A stretch of DNA of 20,023 nucleotides, taken from the IMG/VR virus record IMGVR_UViG_3300049149_000029, positions 1-20,023 of that record; one strand, 5' to 3'. Position 1 is the stretch's first letter, and every line of letters begins with the position of its first letter. Made by a program: the position numbers and the translations under genes. Of this stretch, positions 5,290-18,734 are shown piece by piece. The DNA is from a virus. Below the pieces are notes generated by a model. That model had not been told where the DNA came from. It did no database searches and saw nothing but the letters and a program-made list of their open reading frames with translations.

Positions 5290-7173
5290 TTATTGCATCA
5301 ATTGAGGCGGAGGAGCTCCCGGCATAGCTCCAGCTTGAGCTGGAATTTGTGGGACTTGAGATTGTGGCTGAGGCATAGCGCCAATAGAAGGTGGAGATTT
5401 TGCAGATGCTTTATTTATCAAATAAGTAACCTGAACCATAAAATCATCAACTTTTTGCAAATTTTCTTCTGGGCAACCGTCCAACTGAGCTTCCAAATAC
5501 ATCAATTGAGCAGTATCCAAACATAGCGCCAAATTCAATTCGGAAGCGGGGGGAATATATTCTCCACCTTGCAACATACTTCCAATAATTTTTTCAATCA
5601 AACGTTTCGGAGATGTATGTCTCTTCAGATATGCTGCAACATCTGGCGTGGCAATTTCTTCCAACAAATCGCTCTTATTCTCAATATACCCACGTTTAGC
5701 AAGCATATCCACCATTTCAATCTGGCCAGCCGGAGTATCCCCAAGCATTGATGCAGGCATTGGATGAATTACCCAATCATCATCTTTCAAATCCAAGTCT
5801 TTTCGGCGAATCACCTCATAAGAAGATTTACCATATATAGGGACTTCATAATCAGGAATTAAGCTAGCCGCACGAACGCCTTTAGAAATGCAATCTACGT
5901 GTAGCTCTGACCATTGTTCATGCACGGTAGCAAATCTGTCTGAGTCCTGTATATCGTCATAGACGAGAAGTGAACGGCCTGATTCGAGACCGGCAGGTTT
6001 TTCACCATGTGCAGAGAGCTGAGAAATTCCAGCGATTTCGTAGGCTCTAGAATACAAACGGTCAAGATGCTGGAACATTTCTGGGTGGACTGTTGCTGGT
6101 GCATTTATTTTAGGTTCTTTCCCATTATAAAGAATAATACTACCCGGAATATCCGTAATATTACCTTTTTGAATGTTAGAAGAACGATCAGCAAAAATAT
6201 AAGGATTTCCAAGCAAACCCATCGCAGTTGCGATTTTCCTAAGTAGCTTATTAATCTCAGATTGAATTCCCTTCAATTCCTCAGCGAGTCCCATTCCATA
6301 CCAACCAAGATTTGACGTAGACCATCGCATTACAGAATACGGATCTCCGGCCGTCCACTCCCCTCCGGTTAATTCTATTCCACCCTCTCCAACAATCGAC
6401 AATATTCCACGAGCAGGATCGTCTGGATCAATGAAAAGAGACTCCACGATTTTGACTTTATCAGAAGCATCAGATTCTTGCAAAGCATAGAAAGGGTCAC
6501 CATCTCCACTAGTAAGTGTTGGTAATGCCTCAATCTCAGCTCGCATATTAGGATACCTACGAATGAGAGTGTGCTTACTAGGAAACTTAACTTCGTAATA
6601 ATGAGCTGGTGTTTGAGTAACATCTGCACCTTCTGCAAAATCAACCATCAAGTTAGGGGAAAATATTCTCTCAAATAGAACTTCTTTTCTAGATTTTATA
6701 GCAAACGTCTTCATTACTCCAGTACCAGTAATAAGTAAATCAACAAATGCCTGAGCCGTCTTTTTGTGAAGCTTTCCTTTTAGCGCAAGTCCAGTCCCAA
6801 ATGCCTCCAGTTTTCGTGAGCGTTCTTTAGCTCCCCAGTCAGCACCCTTGCATTGATAAATACATTTAATTTTATTACGAGTAATTCGCGAATGAACTGC
6901 ATTCGCCATATTACGAACTACATTTAGGGAAAGAGGAATCCTATGCATTGTTACAGGCGTAACAGCAGAACGCCCGTAATAGCCCATCATTTCAATGTTT
7001 CGATACATACGAACATGGTCCAACGTGTTCTCACGCCAAACCGATTGTTCGTCTTCAACGTATTTGAACGCCGCGTAGGCCGCGCGCCCCCTGTCCTCGG
7101 GTTTCTTCTCTTCTTCCCAGTAAATCCCCTTGTTTTCTACTGCCTGCTGTTCTTCGAGGACAGAATTAGACAT
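5290..7173 (-). CDS. Portal protein
   Basis: This encodes 627 residues. The portal forms the dodecameric ring at one head vertex through which DNA enters and leaves. The N-terminal region contains 'AYAAFKYVEDEQSVWRENTLDHVRMYRN', then 'RIPLSLNVVRNMANAVHSRITRNK', a pattern typical of large phage portals. The middle region has 'GWYGMGLAEELKGIQSEINKLLRKI' (the long helix that often precedes the portal stem). Near the C-terminus lies 'PMPASMLGDTPAGQIEMVDMLAKRGYI', followed by a Pro/Gln-rich tail. The position between terminase and scaffold fits. ATG 7173 lies 15 bases after the previous stop and has no clear Shine-Dalgarno. The size resembles P22-like rather than HK97-like portals. No oddities are seen in the frame. 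Confidence 0.9.
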   Translation of the reverse strand: MSNSVLEEQQAVENKGIYWEEEKKPEDRGRAAYAAFKYVEDEQSVWRENTLDHVRMYRNIEMMGYYGRSAVTPVTMHRIPLSLNVVRNMANAVHSRITRNKIKCIYQCKGADWGAKERSRKLEAFGTGLALKGKLHKKTAQAFVDLLITGTGVMKTFAIKSRKEVLFERIFSPNLMVDFAEGADVTQTPAHYYEVKFPSKHTLIRRYPNMRAEIEALPTLTSGDGDPFYALQESDASDKVKIVESLFIDPDDPARGILSIVGEGGIELTGGEWTAGDPYSVMRWSTSNLGWYGMGLAEELKGIQSEINKLLRKIATAMGLLGNPYIFADRSSNIQKGNITDIPGSIILYNGKEPKINAPATVHPEMFQHLDRLYSRAYEIAGISQLSAHGEKPAGLESGRSLLVYDDIQDSDRFATVHEQWSELHVDCISKGVRAASLIPDYEVPIYGKSSYEVIRRKDLDLKDDDWVIHPMPASMLGDTPAGQIEMVDMLAKRGYIENKSDLLEEIATPDVAAYLKRHTSPKRLIEKIIGSMLQGGEYIPPASELNLALCLDTAQLMYLEAQLDGCPEENLQKVDDFMVQVTYLINKASAKSPPSIGAMPQPQSQVPQIPAQAGAMPGAPPPQLMQ

Positions 7174-12848: not shown

Positions 12849-13910
12849 ATGTCACATATGTGGGATCGCGGTGTTTTAGACTCGTCTTCTTGGCACGGCC
12901 TAGAGGAAGTTGGCGTTTTCACTGACGCCGAAAGCATGATTGATCACGGTGAGAACTCGGGCGCGTGGCCTTGCGATCTGCAGGTTGCGCCGCTTTACGC
13001 TCACGTGAAAAACACGGACGTGCAGGTGCCGGTTCTGAACACCTCGGCACTGACCGCGTTCTACCGGGGACACCCGGCGCGTGTCGTTGGCGTCAACGGT
13101 GGCCGCTACTCGCCTCACAGCGTCGGCTCACGTAACGAGCTCATTCGTGCCGCCGTGCTCGCTGGTGCGAAGCCGACTGGCGCGTTCAGTCTCAAAGACG
13201 GCTCGGTCACGCTCGCGACGTTCCAAGTCAATGGCTCGGAAGACGGCATTGTTACGAATCTGCTAATGGTGGATTCGTACGATGGCACTCAGCAATTGCG
13301 CGTTGGGACAACCAGCATTCGAGTCGTTTGCGCAAACACACTGGCGAGCTCACTTCGTCAAGACGGCGCCGGAATGGCCGTTCTGCGTCACTCGGGCAAT
13401 CTCGACGGCAAGGTGCGGGCACTCCAAGACTCAATTGGCGAGGCGCTCAAGACGGGTCAGAAGATCCGCGAATTGTACAATCGCGCAAAGCAGACGCGCA
13501 TTAGCAAGGTTCAGGCAGACATTATCCTGAATAAGCTGTTTCCGCTCGCCGAAAAGGATGCTCCTCAGGTGGCGGTCACGCGCGCTGAAAATGAACAGCG
13601 CGAGGCTCTCATGGCTGCGTCCAACGTGGTCAACAATGACGGCAGCACGGTCGCTACGCTCTGGAACGCCGCTACGTATCTCGTGGACCGTGAAGTCGAC
13701 GGCTCTGCGCGCAGCACGCGTTCTGGTGACTCCCTGAGCTCCCTTTTGCTCGGCCAGCGCGCCAAGCGCATTGACGAGGTTCAGTCAATTATCGAGATGG
13801 TTTTGGCAGATGGCTCAATTCAAGAGATGACGATTGCTGAGGCAGCTCAGACCGAATCTCAGAAACAAGGCTTTGAGGACTTGCTTTCGCGTCCAGTGAG
13901 TGTTATCTAA
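12849..13910 (+). CDS. DUF932 phage/plasmid-like protein
   Basis: This encodes 353 residues from ATG 12849, seven bases after AGGAG. The pattern matches the DUF932 family: an N-terminal 'WHGLEEVGVFTDAESM', then 'NGGRYSPHSVGSRNELIRAAV', 'KDGSVTLATFQVN', the strongly conserved 'TTSIRVVCANTLASSLRQDG', and 'VRHSGNLDGKV'-like 'AVLRHSGNLDGKVRALQDSI'. The length is normal. DUF932 proteins occur widely in phages, plasmids and mobile islands; their molecular function is not established. No catalytic motif can be assigned. A hammerhead ribozyme begins three bases after its stop, so the 3' end of this mRNA is probably made by self-cleavage. Confidence 0.88.
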   Translation: MSHMWDRGVLDSSSWHGLEEVGVFTDAESMIDHGENSGAWPCDLQVAPLYAHVKNTDVQVPVLNTSALTAFYRGHPARVVGVNGGRYSPHSVGSRNELIRAAVLAGAKPTGAFSLKDGSVTLATFQVNGSEDGIVTNLLMVDSYDGTQQLRVGTTSIRVVCANTLASSLRQDGAGMAVLRHSGNLDGKVRALQDSIGEALKTGQKIRELYNRAKQTRISKVQADIILNKLFPLAEKDAPQVAVTRAENEQREALMAASNVVNNDGSTVATLWNAATYLVDREVDGSARSTRSGDSLSSLLLGQRAKRIDEVQSIIEMVLADGSIQEMTIAEAAQTESQKQGFEDLLSRPVSVI

Positions 13911-13912
13911 TA

Positions 13913-13962
13913 GGTCGAAACCCCGCAAGGGGTCTGCACGTAAGGCGTGCACTGATGAGACC
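13913..13962 (+). ncRNA. Type II hammerhead self-cleaving ribozyme
   Basis: All core elements are present in order. Stem II 5' GGTC (13913-13916); GAAA (13917-13920); stem III CCCC-GCAA-GGGG (13921-13932), closed by a GNRA tetraloop and extended by the required A15.1-U16.1 pair (13920/13933); cleavage site TC, cut expected after C13934; stem I TGCACG-TAAGG-CGTGCA (13935-13951); the conserved CTGATGA (13952-13958); stem II 3' GACC (13959-13962). Stems I and III are closed by loops and stem II is open, which defines type II. It lies between the DUF932 gene and the next gene, whose Shine-Dalgarno AAAGGA follows at once. Cleavage would separate the two messages, leaving a 5'-hydroxyl on the downstream one. 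Confidence 0.93.
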
Positions 13963-13974
13963 AAAGGACTAATT

Positions 13975-14235
13975 ATGGCTACCTATTCTGTTCAATTGCC
14001 GTTTACTGGTTATTGTGTTGTCGAAGTTGAGGCGGACTCTGCCGAGGATGCTATTGAGGCCGCCTTTGAAAAGGCAGATGCCTCGAATCCTGAAGAGGTA
14101 GAGTTTCACAAGGCGATCGTTACCGGAAATGTCTTCCGCGGAGTTCTCAATAAGGCCTCGGCTGAATGCCTTGAGGAAGACGAGGAGGAAGGCGAGGAGG
14201 AAGACGAGGAAGTGGTGGACCCGGCCAATGAATAA
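13975..14235 (+). CDS. Small acidic phage protein, unknown
   Basis: This encodes 86 residues from ATG 13975, with AAAGGA seven bases upstream; an earlier start in frame would run through the ribozyme and is rejected. The first 50 residues alternate strands and helix (MATYSVQLPFTGYCVVEVEA, then DSAEDAIEAAFEKA), like small phage proteins with an 'A.S.EEAI..A' helix. The C-terminus is a run of Glu and Asp (LEEDEEEGEEEDEE). Translation probably uses the 5'-OH mRNA released by the hammerhead. The stop overlaps the next start by eight bases. Function unknown. Confidence 0.75.
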   Translation: MATYSVQLPFTGYCVVEVEADSAEDAIEAAFEKADASNPEEVEFHKAIVTGNVFRGVLNKASAECLEEDEEEGEEEDEEVVDPANE

Positions 14236-15101: not shown

Positions 15102-15175
15102 TGACCGGTAGCTCAGTTGGTTAGAGCACGGGTCTTATAAGCCTGAGGTCGGCGGTTCAAGTCCGCTCCGGTCAA
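15102..15175 (+). tRNA. tRNA-Ile (anticodon TAT, reads AUA)
   Basis: A full cloverleaf can be drawn. Acceptor TGACCGG (15102-15108) pairs with CCGGTCA (15168-15174) and A73 follows; D-arm GCTC/GAGC; anticodon stem CGGGT/GCCTG with two wobble pairs; loop CTTATAA with anticodon TAT at 15136-15138; T-arm GGCGG-TTCAAGT-CCGCT. T8, A9 and the D-loop GG are present. No CCA is encoded. Most bacteria read AUA with a lysidine-modified CAU tRNA, so a UAU anticodon is less common. AUA is used in the AT-rich head genes. Confidence 0.92.
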
Positions 15176-15183
15176 CTAAACTA

Positions 15184-16409: not shown

Positions 16410-18734
16410 TCAATTCGTTTCTACAGGAAATCTCGTATCTGCCACCGCCTGAGCGACCGCGGGCAATTCGTGAGTTTCGAGATTATCTTGAACTGATTCT
16501 ATTGGAGAGGATGCTTTTCCGTTTGAAGTCTCGGGATTGGCTACTTGGCTATTGTCCTCTGAAACAGGATAGGTTTTCTGATTGACGACTGCCCCAGTTC
16601 CAGAATGAGCAACCCATGCCCAGCGTCGATCGCCTCCTGTCTCTCGGATCCTGACGTAGCCATTGGCGCGTAGAATAGCTCCGATCCTTTTGCCGTCATA
16701 GCCAGTCTGGCGACCAGGATCCATATTTAGAGCGGTAGTTAATATCGTTTCTGAATAGACCGGCCTGTCCTGGCGTTTCATGAATATAAGAACCTGAGCT
16801 TCCCACGGGTCGTTATGCTGTCGTATTGATTGCTGTTCTTTAATTGCTGATTGAATTTTTAGTTCATCTGGCGTAAACCAATGTCTCTCTCCGTCGGCAT
16901 AAAGGGATTTTGCTTCGGCCAGAAGCTGATTCCTTTCCTGGGAGAGAAGGTCTATTTCTATCTTGCCAACTACGACAGGCCAGAACCTTCGAGCCCCGGT
17001 CGAATCAACTATATACTCTCCTTCGTTAGTTGTCGCACCAAAGACACAGCGTCTTGGACGCTTAACGAACCCTCGCGCATAAGGTGGTCGAAATGTGTCC
17101 CACCTCTCGCTGAGATAGGCTTTTACCTTTTCAATGATAGACGAACGGACGCCGGCAAGTTCTTGGATTTCAATAATCCACGATCCGGAGAGGATATGCT
17201 GAGCGTCCTTATCATCCAAACGAGGCAAATTCCCAAGATACCAATCGCCTCCAAGGATCCTGAACACGCTAGTCTTTCCAGCCCCCTGTGGTCCTTCGAG
17301 CACAAGGGTATGGTCTACCTGCACTCCAGGTTCGTAGGCACGAGCGATGGCAGATATTAGCCACGCTTTGCCTATTCTACGAGAATACTCTTCGTCTTTT
17401 GCTCCGCAATAACGCGTAAGCCAGTTATCGACTCGCTTGACGCCATCCCAGTGTAAACGATCTAAATGTTCAAGTAATGAATTGTGTGAATTAGATAGTC
17501 CAATTGCTGATATTACGTCTTGTGTGTCTCCTTTTGCGCATTTCATGCCGCGTTCATGAAAGAACCATTGGGCTATGTAAATCCAGTCTGCTTCATTTAC
17601 ATTCATTCCTTCGATAATATCAGGCATGCCAACCACTGGCGGAGGTCGCTTTGCCCAGTAGAGCCTGTCCTTACTCTCGTCATGGGCAATACAATTAGTC
17701 CAATCTGGCATATTATCGATCATCAGACGTAGATTGCCAGCATTTCCGACTGGGGCTAATCCTCTATTGTCCCAAACAATTGATTCTTCCCATTTGGCGC
17801 GCGTTACTCGGCGTAATTCTTTCTCTGCTCCAGGTATCTTGTCGGATGCAATCTTCGCTGCCTCAGGCGGGAGCGCCTTGAGTACTTCGTGCATTCGCTG
17901 TAGACCCGTAAGGCCGGCGAGTCTTTCTCTACAATGCGCATGTGAGCAAAAGAACCATCCCCATTTCGATTTCCCCGTGGGTCCAAAAATAACCGTGCTT
18001 GTATCGCCTGGCTTCCCGCTCGTATGATCCGAATTCCAAGGGCAAATAACCTGCGTTCTATCTGGGCCGAGCGGACGCCCGAGCATGCCAGCAGCACCAA
18101 ACGCGACCCCTAAAATTCCGTCAAGTGGCTCCCCAGCGCGTTCCGAATAGCGCGCCCCCTTGCGTGTCTGATCCGTAAGCCAAGCTGGCGGAAACTCCGG
18201 TTGCTCCGCTTGGCCATAGTCCCAAAGGTATTTCCCGCCCGATGCGTGATTGCTCGGGGGAGCGATCACATATCCACCATCCCCCTTGAGCTCGACCCCC
18301 TGTCCTAATATCCTAGATTTTTGGCGAGCATCAATAGATAAAACATCAAAGTAATAGTGGTAACCGTTTCCGCCAGTATTCGCGGATAGCGTGTTAGGGA
18401 ATACGCCGTTTGCCTTTTGTAGTTCTTGGTAACTAGAATCACCATCATTACGAGGGTCAACATCCAAGACAAGCACGTTGCTACGCCCACAATCAATACC
18501 AATATTAGCATCTGGCCACTCCGTCCACCATACTTTAATTAGATCAACATCTATTGTAGAATCCTTAAATCCATTTGGTGTTCTTGGGTGTTTTCCCGGG
18601 CGACCGCACTCACGTCCGCATGAGCATTTGCCATTACGAATAGAATGAACTGGAAAAACAAACCAGGCATGCTTAGCGTAATGAATCGCGGCTTCCAGCG
18701 GGCTAGCGCTGTCTGGAAGCTCAAGTATTGCCAT
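16410..18734 (-). CDS. Bifunctional Prim-Pol primase with VirE-type helicase
   Basis: This encodes 774 residues. Residues about 10-190 form an archaeo-eukaryotic primase-polymerase domain: 'CSCGRECGRPGKHP' (38-50), catalytic 'VLVLDVDPRNDG' (87-98), 'GGNGYHYYF' (121-129) and 'GVELKGDGGYVIAPPS' (146-161). A zinc site follows (C231, H237, then CSHAHC at about 263-268). From about 380 comes a VirE/SF3-like ATPase: Walker A GPQGAGKT (481-488), Walker B SWIIEIQEL (518-526), sensor GATTN (566-570) and an Arg finger in GARRFWPV (580-587). It would prime and unwind DNA for phage replication. ATG 18734 follows the upstream stop directly. A polar tail (after about 710) may be a binding region. Confidence 0.9.
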   Translation of the reverse strand: MAILELPDSASPLEAAIHYAKHAWFVFPVHSIRNGKCSCGRECGRPGKHPRTPNGFKDSTIDVDLIKVWWTEWPDANIGIDCGRSNVLVLDVDPRNDGDSSYQELQKANGVFPNTLSANTGGNGYHYYFDVLSIDARQKSRILGQGVELKGDGGYVIAPPSNHASGGKYLWDYGQAEQPEFPPAWLTDQTRKGARYSERAGEPLDGILGVAFGAAGMLGRPLGPDRTQVICPWNSDHTSGKPGDTSTVIFGPTGKSKWGWFFCSHAHCRERLAGLTGLQRMHEVLKALPPEAAKIASDKIPGAEKELRRVTRAKWEESIVWDNRGLAPVGNAGNLRLMIDNMPDWTNCIAHDESKDRLYWAKRPPPVVGMPDIIEGMNVNEADWIYIAQWFFHERGMKCAKGDTQDVISAIGLSNSHNSLLEHLDRLHWDGVKRVDNWLTRYCGAKDEEYSRRIGKAWLISAIARAYEPGVQVDHTLVLEGPQGAGKTSVFRILGGDWYLGNLPRLDDKDAQHILSGSWIIEIQELAGVRSSIIEKVKAYLSERWDTFRPPYARGFVKRPRRCVFGATTNEGEYIVDSTGARRFWPVVVGKIEIDLLSQERNQLLAEAKSLYADGERHWFTPDELKIQSAIKEQQSIRQHNDPWEAQVLIFMKRQDRPVYSETILTTALNMDPGRQTGYDGKRIGAILRANGYVRIRETGGDRRWAWVAHSGTGAVVNQKTYPVSEDNSQVANPETSNGKASSPIESVQDNLETHELPAVAQAVADTRFPVETN

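Follow-up and report, generated by a model that had tools for sequence, protein, structure and literature searches.

An intact type II hammerhead ribozyme of compact layout lies between a DUF932 gene and a small downstream gene in the window, the 20,023-nt stretch of DNA analysed here, from an uncultured phage (IMG/VR record IMGVR_UViG_3300049149_000029). Judged from its sequence, the ribozyme probably acts in cis, cutting the joint transcript of the DUF932 gene and an 86-aa gene and so turning the two cistrons into separate messages, each with its own ends; we give this reading a probability of roughly 0.78. The initial annotation had described a complete type II hammerhead at these positions, with a GNRA loop and cleavage after C13934. 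The intact core and the three stems can be read directly in the DNA, and the loop, the predicted cut site and the coordinates are as it gave them (Table 1).

Table 1. The ribozyme, its parts and the flanking genes (positions in the window)
Feature	Position	Strand	Basis or remark
DUF932 gene, 353 aa, upstream cistron	12849..13910	+	Pfam PF06067, E 7e-19; PHROG 1221
Type II hammerhead ribozyme, compact layout	13913..13962	+	sequence, fold, Rfam, covariance model, core-plus-stems search
Stem II, 5' strand GGTC	13913..13916	+	pairs with 13959-13962; compensatory pairs in relatives
Core G12 A13 A14 (GAA)	13917..13919	+	sequence
Stem III hairpin ACCCC-GCAA-GGGGT, 5 bp, GNRA loop	13920..13933	+	sequence; covariation
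C17 (C13934) and predicted cut	13934/13935	+	predicted from position by the hammerhead rule
Stem-loop I TGCACG-TAAGG-CGTGCA	13935..13951	+	sequence; covariation; 17-nt length common to compact class
Core CUGAUGA (CTGATGA)	13952..13958	+	sole CTGATGAG in the window
Stem II, 3' strand GACC	13959..13962	+	sequence; covariation
Shine-Dalgarno-like AAAGGA	13963..13968	+	abuts stem II; 6 nt to ATG 13975
Small downstream gene, 86 aa, acidic C-terminus	13975..14235	+	PHROG 9348, E 2.7e-15, unknown function

The element reads GGTC GAA ACCCC-GCAA-GGGGT C / TGCACG-TAAGG-CGTGCA CTGATGA GACC, the slash marking the predicted cut. All of the conserved hammerhead positions are present, namely C3 U4 G5 A6 N7 G8 A9, G12 A13 A14, the A15.1-U16.1 pair and H17. 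Stem I (13935-13940 with 13946-13951, loop UAAGG at 13941-13945) and stem III (A13920-C13924 with G13929-T13933, the closing pair A15.1-U16.1 being A13920-T13933) are loop-closed, stem II is open, and the pairs flanking the core are intact. Folded alone, the ribozyme has a minimum free energy (MFE) of -22.2 kcal/mol (z = -3.67), and none of 200 shuffled sequences was as stable. A search for the core letters with minimum stem lengths in the three hammerhead permutations, which was designed once the motif had been seen and specifies the general core alone, matched the window once, and 3.5 Mb of dinucleotide-shuffled sequence gave no match. Neither this search nor the covariance model described below found a second hammerhead in the 20-kb window.

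Compensatory change in relatives supports the stems. In a set of 27 compact relatives from which the window was excluded, 99.5% of the cells pair, and changes on both sides occur at 9 of the 15 pairs. The covariation score of 0.611 (0.135 when shuffled) is lost when the partners are slid, and the covarying positions were left free by the pattern used to collect the seeds. A covariance model built from these relatives, without the window, matches positions 13910-13969 with 71.6 bits (E = 2.5e-17), a score inflated by the way the seeds were gathered, namely with core letters fixed to those of the window's type. The window ribozyme forms all 15 of the modelled pairs. At the level of the whole window, no close relatives by DNA were found among phage records, and viral contigs gave one weak DUF932 fragment and nothing closer. 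A Prim-Pol/VapE-like primase-helicase is encoded at 16410-18734 on the - strand; it has only distant relatives among phage records (~29% identity), and none were found in viral contigs. A weak head-tail connector/portal match at 5290-7173 on the same strand (Pfam PF12236, just below the cut-off) suggests a podovirus-like structural module there. A tRNA gene at 15102-15176 (+), called tRNA-Ile with anticodon TAT, lies in the same + block as the ribozyme, ~1.1 kb past it.

When 171 nt were scanned locally, the Rfam type II model (RF02276) gave 24.7 bits (E = 0.0032), short of its gathering score of 37, and the type II match is not listed at E<=1 when the whole window is scanned. The initial annotation had named an Infernal score below the family cut-off as its own refutation, and on this formal point the result goes against it; the fit of the cut-off to the compact layout was therefore tested. 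A pattern scan of viral contigs returned at least 120 stretches, giving with the window 135 listed motifs, which split into two layouts. In one of them stem-loop I is at least 20 nt long, and most members resemble the published type II consensus in having a loop I able to pair with the tail that follows stem II. In the compact layout, to which the window belongs and which recurs in dozens of contigs among the matches listed, stem-loop I is almost always 17 nt, stem II has 4 bp and loop I shows no consistent pairing with the tail. Compact relatives score 28.8-33.1 bits under RF02276 and none reaches a cut-off; two further ones give only weak type III matches, also below the cut-off. Most of the pseudoknotted relatives listed reach 37-53 bits. 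Since compact relatives miss the cut-off too and most pseudoknotted ones pass it, the shortfall appears to be a limit of the model, and the low score of the window more likely reflects the model's training set than a damaged ribozyme. As the cut-off misses the compact layout, annotations of phage genomes probably include too few of these ribozymes.

A Watson-Crick pseudoknot between loop I and the tail was sought in the window ribozyme and rejected, the best complement being 2 bp. Most known type II motifs have this pseudoknot, but it is not required of all (PMC3088659). In the 47 compact motifs listed, the first loop I position is U in 40 and the base just before the 4-bp stem II is A in 40; one might guess at a non-Watson-Crick contact, which such a U and A would fit. 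The compact pattern matches five stretches in the genome_contigs collection, so that the form looks mostly viral. Prophage origin was considered and set aside, the pattern having only these 5 matches. Compact type II hammerheads are seen at L208, L209, L211 and L212 in bacterial genome assemblies (Deltaproteobacteria, Synergistaceae and Gammaproteobacteria bins).

The ribozyme is fused to the end of the upstream gene. The DUF932 reading frame stops with TAA at 13908-13910, an in-frame TAG follows at 13911-13913, and stem II begins with the final G of this second stop (G13913). At the other edge AAAGGA adjoins stem II, in agreement with the earlier description of a ribozyme that separates the DUF932 gene from its neighbour and sits right before a Shine-Dalgarno. 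A stop codon near the ribozyme core is a recurring rule across the motifs. In 113 of the 135 listed (window included) the stop of a long upstream ORF lies within 20 nt of the core; random positions gave this in 55 of 675 cases. The following start codon is a median of 29 nt downstream. Where a locus has two or more hammerheads, they are on the same strand (57 of 57 loci among the matches listed), with a typical spacing of ~340 nt and up to ten within less than 3 kb. The locus L022:3925-6747 (-) has ten type II hammerheads in ~2.8 kb, roughly one per small-gene pair, and in nine of the ten the last base of the stop codon either opens stem II or immediately precedes it. Locus L104 has nine, eight of type II and one of type III.

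The link between DUF932 and hammerheads is real and not obligatory. It was measured from stop to stop in two opposite samplings, with other ORFs as the comparison; DUF932-selected loci were collected with a closer subset of the alignment, the diverse alignment being too variable. Among the matches listed in hammerhead-selected loci, window excluded, 6 of 7 DUF932 ORFs abut a hammerhead, versus 44 of the 1064 other ORFs that span 180 codons or more (p = 5e-8), and in DUF932-selected loci the counts are 12 of 74 versus 6 of 473 (p = 1.6e-7); both p-values are optimistic, since the tests take no account of relatedness and include some nearly duplicate loci. On the other hand, 62 of the 74 sampled DUF932 loci have no hammerhead next to the gene, and HU-like proteins, ArdC, ArdA, DUF3164 and others are also ribozyme neighbours. 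The proposal that DUF932 linkage is a distinct theme therefore holds as an enrichment and not as a general property of DUF932 loci. The search of spacers beside DUF932 genes in other phages, which had been suggested along with it, succeeded in those 12 loci and in none of 13 named phage records with DUF932, within the stretch examined (<=4 kb on each side). In loci L123-L127, four to six hammerheads punctuate a small-gene block, with one directly upstream of DUF932. A literature search found no paper naming hammerhead and DUF932 together.

From the observed sequence, fold, covariation, placement and recurrence we infer cleavage, its timing and its effect on expression. The transcript would be cut after C13934, during or after its synthesis. 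Both stems adjacent to the cut are closed in type II, so each new message end should carry a hairpin. At the 3' end of the DUF932 message this would be the GCAA-capped stem III, carrying a 2',3'-cyclic phosphate; at the 5' end of the downstream message it would be stem-loop I, starting with a 5'-OH ~28 nt ahead of the Shine-Dalgarno. Type II alone of the three permutations leaves closed hairpins flanking the cut, which may be the reason for its use between genes. Stability and translation of the two separated messages could then be set independently. That self-cleavage sets the mRNA ends, as had been suggested, is plausible from this anatomy and from the published cleavage of similar phage hammerheads (PMC3088659). 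Because the DUF932 gene stops at the 5' edge of the ribozyme, a ribosome terminating there should sit over stem II and the GAAA strand, which would block folding and delay the cut until the ribosome has left.

In longer native context the predicted fold changes. With 141 nt the MFE structure (ViennaRNA) breaks stem II, and the alternative, in which part of the CUGAUGA strand is paired with the end of the DUF932 gene, is better by 1.5 kcal/mol; with 231 nt the difference is 1.8 kcal/mol. The ribozyme fold may therefore need a tertiary contact or a cleared upstream ORF, and ribosomes translating the DUF932 gene would remove the competing fold. The same energy difference, together with the absence of a visible loop I/tail pseudoknot and with the slow or inactive behaviour of certain natural core-variant hammerheads (PMC3088659), could point to a hammerhead by descent that is slow or inactive in the cell, a neutral relic. 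We consider this unlikely, as all core positions and 15/15 pairs are intact in the window, the compact layout recurs in dozens of contigs, and pairing is kept by compensatory change in relatives, which is unexpected for a relic.

Selection might instead act on the two GC-rich hairpins, as 3' and 5' stabilisers or as an inter-cistron RNase site, with catalysis incidental. Both are placed to shield messages, and the spacer has no predicted intrinsic terminator, for which reason a terminator reading of the spacer was also rejected. Such an explanation leaves unaccounted for the invariant unpaired core (CUGAUGA, GAA, C17), certain letters of which were fixed by the pattern, and the conservation of stem II in relatives, and we regard it as very improbable. 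Hammerheads are capable of ligation. A role as a ligase or in trans, in which the ribozyme and another hammerhead together produce circular or spliced RNAs, would suit the multi-hammerhead arrays of related loci, and is extremely unlikely here, where the 20-kb record has a single hammerhead. In the work of Perreault et al., a search for circular or spliced products was negative (PMC3088659). The reading that we favour is a cut in cis between the two cistrons.

Several known systems resemble this arrangement. One of them, RiboJ, is derived from a hammerhead. Like the present ribozyme, RiboJ lies upstream of a ribosome-binding site, and as an engineered insulator it raises downstream transcript and protein levels (PMC6206723); it is an engineered 5' UTR part, whereas the ribozyme here lies between two natural cistrons. 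The theta ribozymes of gut phages are also self-cleaving ribozymes in phage genomes, but belong to another class, with an HDV-like fold and a link to tRNA-based recoding (PMC10879173). The closest parallel is within type II itself. The occurrence of hammerheads in phages, which the initial annotation had taken as known, was reported for phage-like DNA in 2011 (PMC3088659), when clustered type II hammerheads were described flanking phage genes and triple arrays were found to cleave (Perreault et al., 2011; PMC3088659). For hammerheads of the phage type, self-cleavage has been published both in vitro and in E. coli (PMC3088659). The RF02276 type II ribozymes of bacteria, archaea and prophages share with the window ribozyme the permutation, the core, the phage-like intergenic site and the strand of the flanking genes, and multiple copies flanking genes were described previously (PMC3088659). 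The window ribozyme differs in being compact (17-nt stem-loop I, UNANG-like loop, 4-bp stem II) and sub-cut-off, without the Watson-Crick loop I/tail pseudoknot. The triple hammerheads that flank ardA in Agrobacterium tumefaciens likewise bound a single phage-type gene, with cleavage in vitro and in E. coli (PMC3088659), whereas the window has a DUF932 neighbour and one ribozyme only.

In view of the 2011 report, the present case extends a known pattern and founds none. What is known already is the class of ribozyme, its type II form and its presence between phage genes; the apparent additions are the sub-cut-off compact layout, the stop-codon fusion and the DUF932 enrichment. The role of hammerheads in prokaryotes was called an open question in a 2017 review (PMC6155905). 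We tentatively suggest, as a possibility with the odds against it, that cutting is gated by translation termination through the stop-codon fusion, and that the compact, pseudoknot-free subclass may serve as a per-gene separator in some operons, with DUF932 as a preferred client. The placement of stop codon, stem II and Shine-Dalgarno over many phage loci makes this a testable idea, in which cistrons would be separated after translation stops.
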